Below are positions 31,506-36,082 of a DNA stretch of 64,000 nucleotides, one piece after another. The notes beneath the pieces are model-generated. The model was not told where the DNA came from. It did not search any database and saw only the letters and a list, made by a program, of their open reading frames with translations. The stretch's first letter is position 1. Each line of letters opens with the position of its first letter. A program made the translations under genes and the position numbers. The DNA comes from Jiangella ureilytica (GTDB lineage Bacteria > Actinomycetota > Actinomycetes > Jiangellales > Jiangellaceae): positions 1-64,000 of the forward strand of contig NZ_SMKL01000006.1 of assembly GCF_004348545.1 (NCBI RefSeq), written 5' to 3'.

Positions 31506-34253
31506 GTGGCTGCCGACCGCTCGCCGATCATCATCAACGGCCTTCCGAGCCAGCTCCCCGACATCGACGCGGACGAGACCAGGGAGTGGCTGGAGTCGCT
31601 CGATGCCGCCATCGACCAGCGCGGACGCCACCGGGCTCGCTATCTGATGCTGGCGCTGCTGCAGCGCGCCCAGGAGCGCCAGGTCGGCGTGCCGAGCCTG
31701 CGCAACACCGACTACATCAACACCATCCCGCCCGAGGCGGAGCCCTGGTTCCCCGGCGACGAGTTCGTCGAACGGCGCATCCGGGCCTATACCCGCTGGA
31801 ACGCGGCCATGATGGTGCAGCGCGCCCAGCGGCCGGGCGTGGGCGTCGGCGGCCACATCTCCACCTACGCGTCGTCGGCGGCGCTCTACGAGGTCGGGTT
31901 CAACCACTTCTTCCGCGGCAAGGACCACGCCGGCGGCGGCGACCAGATCTACTTCCAGGGCCACGCCTCCCCCGGCATGTACGCCCGCGCGTTCCTCGAG
32001 GGCCGGCTCACCGAGAGCCAGCTCGACGGCTTCCGCCAGGAGCTCTCGCACGCCGGGCTGGGCGGCGGGCTGCCGTCCTACCCGCACCCGCGGCTGATGC
32101 CCGACTTCTGGGAGTTCCCGACGGTGTCCATGGGCCTGGGCCCGCTGAACGCCATCTACCAGGCGCGGTTCAACCGCTACCTGCACCACCGCGGCATCAA
32201 GGACACCAGCCAGCAGCACGTGTGGGCGTTCCTCGGCGACGGCGAGATGGACGAGCCCGAGACCATCGGCGCCATCGGCGTCGCCGCCCGCGAAGAGCTC
32301 GACAACCTCACGTTCGTCGTCAACTGCAACCTGCAGCGGCTCGACGGCCCCGTACGCGGCAACGGCAAGATCATCCAGGAGATGGAGGCGCTGTTCCGCG
32401 GCGCCGGCTGGAACGTCATCAAGGTCATCTGGGGCCGCGAGTGGGACCCGCTGCTGGCCGCCGACACCGACGGCGCGCTGGTCAACCTCATGAACGTCAC
32501 GCCCGACGGCGACTACCAGACGTACAAGGCCGAGTCCGGCGCGTACGTCCGCGAGCACTTCTTCGGCCGCGACCCCCGCACCCGCAAGATGGTCGAGGAC
32601 ATGTCCGACGACGAGATCTGGGGGCTCAAGCGCGGCGGGCACGACTACCGCAAGCTGTACGCGGCCTACAAGGCCGCCACCGAGCACACCGGCCAGCCGA
32701 CGGTCATCCTCGCCAAGACGATCAAGGGCTGGACGCTCGGCTCGCACTTCGAGGCGCGCAACGCGACGCACCAGATGAAGAAGCTCACCGGCGACGACCT
32801 CAAGCTCTTCCGCGACCGCCTGTTCATGGAGATCCCCGACGCCGCGCTCGAGGACGTCTACAACCCGCCGTACTTCCACCCGGGCCAGGACTCCGACGAA
32901 CACGCCTACATGATGGAGCGGCGGCAGAAGCTGGGCGGCTTCCTGCCCGAGCGCCGCACCCCCGCGAAGCCGCTGGTGCTGCCGGGCGACAAGGTCTACG
33001 AGGTGGCGAAGCGCGGCTCCGGCAAGCAGCCGGTGGCCACCACCATGGCGCTGGTCCGCCTCCTCAAGGACCTGCTCAAGGATCCCGAGATCGGCAAGCG
33101 ACTCGTGCCCATCATCCCCGACGAGGCCCGCACGTTCGGCATGGACTCCCTGTTCCCGACGCTGAAGATCTACTCGCCGCACGGGCAGAACTACACGCCC
33201 GTCGACCGCGAGCTGTTCCTGTCCTACAAGGAGGCCAAGGACGGGCAGATCCTGCACGAGGGCATCAACGAGGCCGGCTCGGTGGCGTCGTGGACGGCGG
33301 CGGCCACGTCCTACGCCACGCACGGCCAGCCGATGATCCCGCTGTACATCTTCTACTCGATGTTCGGCTTCCAGCGCACCGGCGACGGCTTCTGGGCCGC
33401 CGCCGACCAGCTGTCCCGCGGCTTCGTCCTCGGCGCCACCGCCGGGCGCACCACGCTCAACGGCGAGGGCCTGCAGCACGAGGACGGCCACTCGGTGCTG
33501 CTCGCGTCGACCAACCCGGCGGTCGTGCACTACGACCCCGCCTTCGCCTTCGAGATCGGCCACATCGTCCGCGACGGCCTGCGGCGCATGTACGGCGAGG
33601 ACTCCGAGAACGTCTTCTACTACCTCACCATCTACAACGAGCCGTACGTGCAGCCGGCCGAGCCCGAGAACCTCGACGTCGACGGCCTGCTCAAGGGCAT
33701 GTACCTGTACCAGCCCATGGAGACCGCACCCGGCGACAACGTCCCGCACGCGCAGATCCTCGCGTCCGGCGTCGGCATGAACTGGGCACTCGAGGCGCAG
33801 CAGCGGCTGGCCCACGAGTGGCAGGTCGCGGCCGACGTCTGGTCGGTCACGTCCTGGAACGAGCTGCGCCGCGACGGCCTGGCCGCCGACGAGTGGAACC
33901 TCATGCACCCCGGCGAGGACGCCCGCGTCCCGTACGTCACCCAGCGGCTGCGCGAGGCCCGCGGCCCTGTCGTCGGCGTCAGCGACTACCTGCGCGCGGT
34001 GCAGGACCAGATCGCGCCGTACGTGCCCACCGACTACTCCTCGCTGGGCACCGACGGGTTCGGGCTGTCCGACACGCGGGCGGCGCTGCGCCGGCACTTC
34101 AAGGTCGACGCCCAGTCCATCGTCATCAGCGTGCTGACGCTGCTGGCCCAGCGCGGCGAGCTGCCCTGGGAGACGGTCAAGCAGGCACACGACCGCTACA
34201 AACTCGACGACGTCAAGGCCACCACCGCCGAGGAGGCGGGCGGCGAGTCCTAG
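31506..34253 (+). CDS. aceE: pyruvate dehydrogenase E1, homodimeric type
   Basis: The 915-residue thiamine-diphosphate E1 subunit, which decarboxylates pyruvate and acetylates the E2 lipoyl group, feeding acetyl-CoA to the nearby fatty-acid genes. The TPP motif is [12 protein letters not shown]...NCNLQ. Other family blocks are [24 protein letters not shown], the Glu/His active-site region [17 protein letters not shown] and the transketolase C-terminal domain [19 protein letters not shown]. The length matches E. coli AceE (887). GTG start; strictly cytoplasmic. Confidence 0.96.
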
Positions 34254-34379
34254 CTGGAGTTCCCAGCCGCCCGAACTTCCGACGACCACGTTCCTTTCGC
34301 AAGATCGACCCGCTTTGCTGGTTCTGCCGATCCGTCGCGACCGCCGACGGAGCACCGGTCCATCCAGAGGGGGTTCGCC

Positions 34380-34886
34380 ATGCGAAAGAGAACACCGGTC
34401 GCCTGGGCCGCCGTCGCCGCCGCGGCGGCGACGGTCCTGAGCACGTCCACGCCCAGCGTCGCCCATTCGGCCCAGGAGGTCGTCAGCTACCAGCTCACCA
34501 TCGACGGCGTCGGGCTGACCATGCAGCAGTGCATCGGGCTCGGGACGGCCACGGAGGTCGTCGAGCAGCGGGTGGCGGGCCCGGACGGTCAGGTGACGAC
34601 GGTCAAGGTGCCCGGCCTGCATCGTGACCACGACCTCGTGTGCACCCGGGTGGTCACCGACGACGACACGCTCGTGGAGTGGCAGGAGCTGCTGCTCGCC
34701 GGGGGTCCCGACGCCCGCAAGGACGTCGGTCTCACGCTGTACGACACGCTCGGCGAACCGATCACGGGGTTCGCCTACGAGAACGCCTGGCCCAGCGAGC
34801 TCACGTATGTCGATGCCGGCGACTCCAGCGGCCGGCTCCTCGAGGTCGTGACGATCGTCGCCGACGAGCTCAGGCGGGTCTCGTGA
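34380..34886 (+). CDS. exported protein with phage tail-tube (gp19-like) domain
   Basis: A 168-residue protein. Residues 1-30 are a clear Sec signal ([20 protein letters not shown]...SVAHS). The rest follows the T4 gp19/Hcp-like tail-tube pattern: [20 protein letters not shown], a [18 protein letters not shown] segment (tail-tube proteins have K.PG...  then TL.RG at this place), then [26 protein letters not shown] and [13 protein letters not shown]. Phage and contractile-injection tube proteins are not normally exported. The GTG of the collagen-like gene overlaps its stop (34883-34886). Role unknown; family assignment is by pattern. Confidence 0.68.
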
Positions 34887-35338
34887 ACCGCAACCGGCTG
34901 CTCGCCGTCATCGCCTCGACCGGGGTGATCGTGAGTGGCGGCACGGTGGCGGTCATGGCCGCGACCACGTCCGACGAGGTGATCCATGCGTGCGTGAGCC
35001 GAGGCGTGCTCGGACTGGGCGCCGGGAGCGTCCGCATCGTCGACGGACCGGGCGACTGCCGGCACACCGAGGATCCGACGAGCTGGAACCGGCAGGGTCC
35101 GGCCGGGCCGCCCGGCGCGACCGGCCCGCAGGGCGTGCCCGGCCCGCAGGGCGTGCCCGGCCCGCAGGGGGTGCCCGGCCCGCAGGGCCAGGCCGGCCCG
35201 CAGGGCGAGCCGGGACCCCAGGGCCCCCAGGGACCGCCGGGCGGCAGCCTCGGCGGTGACGCCCTGGTGAGCTCGTGCTGGAGCGGCCTGCCGGAGGTGA
35301 CGATCGGCGAGTGCGTCGCCAGGACGCTCGTTCCCTGA
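34883..35338 (+). CDS. exported collagen-like (Gly-X-Y) protein
   Basis: A 151-residue protein. The N terminus [26 protein letters not shown] is a signal or anchor helix. A short globular part has two Cys (HACVSRG, GDCRHTE), ending in SWNRQG. About 16 uninterrupted Gly-X-Y triplets follow ([19 protein letters not shown] and so on), the hallmark of a collagen triple helix. The tail [11 protein letters not shown] has two more Cys. At DNA level an 18-bp unit is repeated three times within 35123-35176. Coupled by overlap to the gp19-like gene; probably a trimeric extracellular partner. Confidence 0.8.
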
Positions 35339-35344
35339 CGCCGG

Positions 35345-36082
35345 TCAGCCGGCGGCGGCGTGCATCTCCCACACGAGGAGCTCGGCGCCGCCGGTGGCCG
35401 TCACCGCCCGGCCGCCCTCGTCGCTGAAGCGGACGGCGTCGCCCTCGCCCAGGGTGCCGGCGGACTCGACATCGACGACGGCGGCAGCTGCGGCTTCCGC
35501 GCGCGCCACGTAGACATGCACGAACGGCGCCGACGGCAGCGTCACGACGTCACCGGGCCGCAGCCGGGCCACGTGCAGGGCTGCGGCCTCCTGCCCGAGC
35601 CCGACGGCGACGGCGTCGGCGTGCCGTCCCAGCCCGCTCACCACCGGCATCAGCCCGCCGCCTGCCAGCGTCGCCGTCACGTCGGCCTGGCCGTACGACG
35701 GGTCCACGCCCGGCTTCGTCGGCGGCAGCCACATCTGCACGAACCGCGCACCGGAGCCGCCCGACGCCAGCTCGGAGTGCCGCACGCCGCGCCCGGCGCT
35801 CATCCGCTGCACCACGCCCGGCACCAGCTCGCCGCCGTGCCCGGCGGTGTCCTGGTGGACCAGCGAGCCGGTCAGCACCCAGGTGACGATCTCGACGTCG
35901 CGGTGCGGGTGCGCCGGGTAGCCGCCCCCGGGCGAGGCGACATCGTCGTTGGCCACCACCAGCAGCCCGAACCCCACGTTGCCGGGGTCGTAGTGCGGCC
36001 CGAACGAGAACGAGTGCCGCGAGACCACGCCGTCGCCGGGGGTGACGAACCGATCGCCGGCCCGCCGGACCTCGACGCTCAC
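35345..36082 (-). CDS. pirin-family bicupin protein
   Basis: A 245-residue cytoplasmic bicupin. The first cupin has the metal site [22 protein letters not shown] and [15 protein letters not shown], the pirin signature; the second cupin is degenerate ([26 protein letters not shown]). The length fits the bacterial YhhW/pirin group. Some members are quercetin dioxygenases; in actinomycetes a pirin binds acyl-CoA dehydrogenase or pyruvate dehydrogenase E1, which is notable with aceE nearby. It is convergent with the collagen-like gene and ends 6 bp from it. Confidence 0.88.

Follow-up and report, generated by a model that had tools for sequence, protein, structure and literature searches.

Tube proteins are commonly regarded as parts of injection machines. 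Proteins of the T4 gp19 family, the tubes of contractile injection systems (CISs), and Hcp all form hexamers, and the tubes of CISs and phage tails are normally assembled in the cytoplasm, without an export signal. Among the bacterial collagen-like proteins, which are built on Gly-X-Y repeats, Legionella Lcl is an extracellular adhesin (PMC11162425). In a 64-kb stretch of Jiangella ureilytica DNA (the window), two overlapping genes bring the two kinds of protein together: gene 1 encodes a gp19-type tube protein that, unlike the tubes of injection systems and phage tails, starts with a Sec-type N-terminus, and gene 2 encodes a collagen-like protein that also appears to be exported (Table 1). 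The component families are already known, while machine-free exported gp19 proteins with collagen, as well as collagen-Hcp fusions, are apparently undescribed, as we found no account of an exported tube protein with collagen or of such a fusion in the open-access literature. The fold of protein 1, the pairing of the genes, and the export signals are well supported. With moderate confidence, we consider the pair to be a translationally coupled cassette in which an injection-type tube protein has been turned into an extracellular ring or adhesin with a collagen stalk.

Table 1. Features of the tube-collagen gene pair in the window
Feature	Position	Strand	Evidence
Gene 1, gp19-type tube protein, 168 aa, predicted to be exported	34380..34886	+	PF06841, PDB tube relatives, fold
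Sec-type signal peptide, residues 1 to 28, putative cleavage site	34380..34463	+	Direct sequence reading; n/h/c pattern in 4 species
gp19 tube domain, residues 36 to 145	34485..34814	+	Pfam match
Cys51, invariant in the exported tube proteins	34530..34532	+	
Cys88, second invariant Cys of the exported tube proteins; putative disulfide with Cys51	34641..34643	+	
Gene 2, collagen-like protein, 151 aa, predicted to be exported, GTG start	34883..35338	+	PF01391 (E=6.5e-8); conserved in 4 species
Two-Cys head domain (Cys37, Cys59), residues 28 to 71, directly before the collagen repeat	34964..35095	+	Invariant in 4 species
17 uninterrupted Gly-X-Y triplets, residues 72 to 122	35096..35248	+	
Short C-terminal tail with Cys132 and Cys144	35249..35335	+	
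Block CAAGATCGACCCGCTTTGC upstream of gene 1, near-invariant in the 4 species with the pair; may be a promoter or operator element	34300..34318	+	Alignment of four upstream regions

The Phage_T4_gp19 family (PF06841) matched protein 1 at residues 36 to 145 with E=1.1e-14 and 54.9 bits, above its cut-off of 28.2, which bears out the likeness to T4 gp19 and contractile-injection tubes seen in the preliminary description. TIGR02241 matched as well (E=1e-13), its 51.3 bits lying below the curated cut-off of 62.4. A sequence search for relatives with solved structures led to tube proteins of CISs and phages (best E=8e-8). An AlphaFold2 model of protein 1 built from 4 aligned sequences reached a pLDDT of 75 and a pTM of 0.63, replacing an earlier one from 3 sequences with a pLDDT of 59. 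When this model was searched against the PDB, the Streptomyces coelicolor injection system supplied the top match, a tube-type chain (E=1e-9), followed by CIS, Hcp, and phage tubes. TM-scores were 0.5 to 0.6, a level at which the class of fold can be trusted but its details cannot. Since all leading matches are tube proteins, the predicted fold is the tube beta-barrel, and the structure prediction proposed earlier as a check on it comes out in its favor.

The N-terminus of protein 1 displays n, h, and c regions typical of a Sec signal, its ATG start is backed by a GAGGGG ribosome site that 4 species share, and protein 2 carries a signal sequence of its own; both signals were judged by eye from the sequence. 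All four species that bear the pair have a Sec-type N-terminus on the tube protein. Secretion and cleavage of both products are predicted on this basis. In an alignment of 130 gp19 rows, only the 4 exported proteins from Jiangella had both Cys51 and Cys88, and this restriction to exported forms suggests a disulfide formed outside the cell, although four related sequences carry little statistical weight.

We read the N-termini of ~120 further gp19 proteins, drawn from samples of the class and the phylum, from Deinococcus plasmids, and from one viral contig. A single one looked exported: an orphan with a Tat-like SRRDALK motif in a genome (G605) that belongs to a different class of this phylum (L178:7977-8537, minus strand, contig G605:C30; Pfam E=1.8e-13). 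Judged by eye, the 16 kb surrounding this gene contain no recognizable injection genes, and there is no collagen neighbor. The scan was heuristic and overlooked the window's own copy, because the scan profile contained the window's sequence from residue 1, so that further exported gp19 proteins may have been overlooked. One alignment used an approximate N-terminus for L020, as a search and profile seed only.

The J. ureilytica genome is 99.97% complete in 168 contigs. Protein 1 is its only gp19 protein, and neither the sheath family PF04984 nor Hcp (PF05638) was detected anywhere in it; the earlier statement that no other phage or injection gene accompanies the pair thus extends to the whole genome for these tested families. 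No phage source of protein 1 came to light: there was no match among 50,697 phage records and nothing close in the viral-contig scans. The nearest plasmid relatives of the tube protein come from Deinococcus; they are 34 to 35% identical, lack a signal, and adjoin sheath or tail genes. On one of these plasmids, Deinococcus grandis pDEGR-1, the tube gene of the injection locus (L081:3923-7702) continues to a total product length of 1259 aa, with an eCIS_core domain in residues 1007 to 1080. Either the tube is joined here to a cargo-like region, or the extension stems from annotation or assembly. Similarity to true tubes might also mean that the signal was miscalled and that protein 1 is an ordinary cytoplasmic phage or injection tube. 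Such a protein would be hard to reconcile with a conserved ribosome site and start, with a genome devoid of a sheath and of a second tube gene, with the missing phage match, and with housekeeping neighbors, and we regard this already disfavored reading as highly improbable.

Bacterial collagen (PF01391) matched the Gly-X-Y run of protein 2. As this is the sole run of at least 8 in all six frames of the 64-kb window, high G+C content does not account for the repeat. It is slightly longer than the approximately 16 triplets estimated at first, and the two flanking Cys pairs that had been noted, Cys37/Cys59 on its N-terminal side and Cys132/Cys144 on its C-terminal side, are invariant in the 4 species. 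Gene 2 starts with the GTG at 34883, 4 bases (GTGA) being common to this start and the stop of gene 1. Thus, the coordinates 34380 to 35338, the Sec signal on a tube-like protein, and the overlap with a signal-bearing collagen-like gene all stand as first described.

On the gene 1 side, the pair is flanked by the pyruvate dehydrogenase E1 gene aceE (31506 to 34253), and on the gene 2 side by a pirin-like gene on the opposite strand (35345 to 36082); both names come from sequence reading. The upstream block CAAGATCGACCCGCTT, which falls outside 34380 to 35338, and the ribosome site are conserved in 4/4 pair-bearing species. A wider regulon for the block at 34300 to 34318 was ruled out, the genome having no second exact copy.

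The exported tube protein is present in 4 of the 12 Jiangella genomes and the matching collagen protein in the same 4, invariably in the same order, with a 4-base overlap (GTGA or ATGA), and at the same site after aceE, with a pirin-like gene on the other side. A search for the pair in other genomes had been suggested as a check, and the pair is thus found again within the genus. The 8 other genomes have neither gene at the aceE site, and in several of them the pirin-like gene directly follows aceE. A weak match to protein 1 in another genome (G008; L010, E=7.5e-4) covers mainly the signal-side half and was taken as chance. In an aceE tree, the four pair-bearing genomes do not form one clade, indicating gain and loss or exchange. 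The tube copy of Jiangella anatolica (G007), located at the same site, is 80% identical to that of the window. Two sister species (G000 and G012) are 97% identical in their aceE ends and only 65% identical in their tube proteins, and the window's tube is nearer to that of J. anatolica, consistent with either allele exchange or very fast evolution.

Simple NG86 estimates of dN/dS were 0.51 to 0.95 for the tube gene (below 1 in all whole-gene pairs), 0.30 to 0.47 for the collagen gene, and 0.09 to 0.17 for aceE; since high G+C compresses dS, these values are comparable only among themselves. The weak constraint on an orphan tube gene, with dN/dS up to 0.95, is what would be expected of a decaying relic, that is, a leftover injection tube gene that gained its signal by chance. 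We find this quite improbable, as 4 species have preserved not just the open frames and the ribosome site but also the overlap, the signal, and the Cys pair, dN/dS of the whole gene is below 1 in every pair, and the partner gene is more clearly constrained. For the tube domain, its quick amino acid change would suit a role that is exposed at the surface or contested. In the contested case, the exported tube could be a weapon or shield in conflicts, e.g., a secreted decoy against phage tails or injection systems that is displayed on collagen. The tube fold itself, as well as fast change and patchy distribution in the genus, as in conflict genes, would agree with this function, but the locus has no defense neighbors, fast change is expected of any surface protein, and Gram-positive envelopes are unusual targets of type VI secretion systems. 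A decoy therefore seems improbable to us.

The best support for a link between tube and collagen comes independently from single-chain proteins of other Actinomycetes. The head domain of protein 2, used as a search profile, recurs on further actinomycete collagen-like proteins with varied C-terminal domains, most of them unrelated to tubes. Some of these head-bearing collagen proteins end in an Hcp domain (PF05638), with E=1e-12 in genome G077 and E=5e-12 in J. anatolica; a further genome (G109) encodes two collagen-Hcp proteins, one of which has a PF05638 match just below the cut-off (E=1.5e-4). J. anatolica harbors the fusion (L055:814-2196) and the two-gene form in one genome. In a PF05638 search of 395 genomes of the class, 15 proteins were found in 14 genomes. 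By reading, these fall into three equal sets: five combine signal, head, collagen, and Hcp in one chain (L067, L073, L075, L076, and L078), span 4 families (f1, f11, f28, and f31), and include the J. anatolica fusion, five have a Sec- or Tat-like N-terminus and no collagen (L064, L065, L069, L072, and L074), and five have no signal-like N-terminus (L066, L068, L070, L071, and L077). The Hcp proteins that were read in the phylum sample, a part of 11, looked cytoplasmic. Separately, two genomes (G037 and G104; L053, L057, and L060 to L062) contain exported collagen-like genes in tandem, each array with two to three near-identical members that share the head of protein 2 and differ in their C-terminal domains.

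Single chains that hold both a tube fold and a collagen module are what joint action of the two separate proteins of Jiangella would lead one to expect. On the other hand, most heads reside on non-tube collagen proteins and five exported-looking Hcp proteins lack collagen, so neither half requires the other generally. Heads that join many unrelated C-terminal domains and exported Hcp domains that exist without collagen would also be expected if the two Jiangella proteins, both exported and co-produced, work apart, the tube domain as a monomeric or small-oligomeric beta-barrel binder and the collagen as a separate matrix protein, with no ring and no docking; the fast change of the tube domain could then mean that multimer interfaces are no longer kept. 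This arrangement is in our view somewhat unlikely, given that the C-terminal strand motif and AWPSELT of the tube protein are conserved in 4/4 species, that pairing within the genus is strict, and that the fusion proteins join both folds.

According to the ring-on-stalk reading that we favor, a contractile-injection tube protein would have gained a signal peptide and a putative disulfide and lost its machine, and the second product would form a secreted stalk of the collagen type that has cysteines in its head and its tail. Outside the cell, self-association of the tube domains is most likely, and it would probably yield rings similar to those of their relatives; the hexamers of gp19, CIS tubes, and Hcp make ring formation plausible. 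The tube domains may attach to the collagen stalks or cap them, and in the fusion proteins, a set of six tube chains would plausibly correspond to two trimers of collagen. The outcome would be a multivalent surface or matrix structure, e.g., an adhesin or binding platform, so that the likely function is in binding or as a surface structure. Against this reading, the Jiangella pair is known from 4 related species of one genus with a patchy distribution, its tube gene is loosely constrained, and the orphan Tat-type gp19 gene has no collagen beside it. It is tempting, if tentative, to assume that Actinomycetes have repeatedly converted tube proteins of both the gp19 and the Hcp type into secreted rings on collagen stalks.

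If this is correct, the pair would represent a so far undescribed class of extracellular structures in which an injection-machine fold is joined to a collagen fiber. Exported, machine-free tubes with collagen in both the gp19 and Hcp lineages would show that rings are reused as extracellular building blocks, and a gp19 or Hcp match alone should not be taken to indicate that an actinobacterium has an injection system. The Jiangella pair is, moreover, a small two-protein system amenable to bench work.

Compared with known systems, protein 1 shares its domain family and predicted fold with the CIS tubes (PF06841 and TIGR02241; S. coelicolor 9gts and 8bl4, Algoriphagus 7adz, and Anabaena 7b5h), but differs from these and from T4 gp19 in its signal peptide, its two invariant Cys residues, its collagen partner, and its lack of sheath or baseplate genes. 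The sheath and further tail genes that define a contractile injection system or phage tail are missing, in that the genome has no PF04984 and no other gp19 gene. With type VI Hcp, protein 1 has the tube fold in common according to the structure search, while the sequence family is different; Hcp proper exits through the type VI machine, whereas protein 1 has a signal peptide. Protein 2 is an exported Gly-X-Y protein like Legionella Lcl and streptococcal SclA and SclB, and has the PF01391 repeat of such bacterial proteins. Whole-protein Scl and Lcl models match only this repeat, however, at 22 to 30 bits against cut-offs of 325 to 500, no LPXTG anchor was seen in protein 2, and a short two-Cys tail replaces the binding domain; unlike in Lcl, SclA, and SclB, the putative binding domain of the Jiangella system is encoded by the adjacent gene. 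The collagen-Hcp fusions resemble the Jiangella pair in having a signal, a two-Cys head, collagen, and a tube-fold domain, with the difference that their tube is Hcp (PF05638) and shares one chain with the collagen, whereas that of Jiangella is gp19 encoded by a separate gene.
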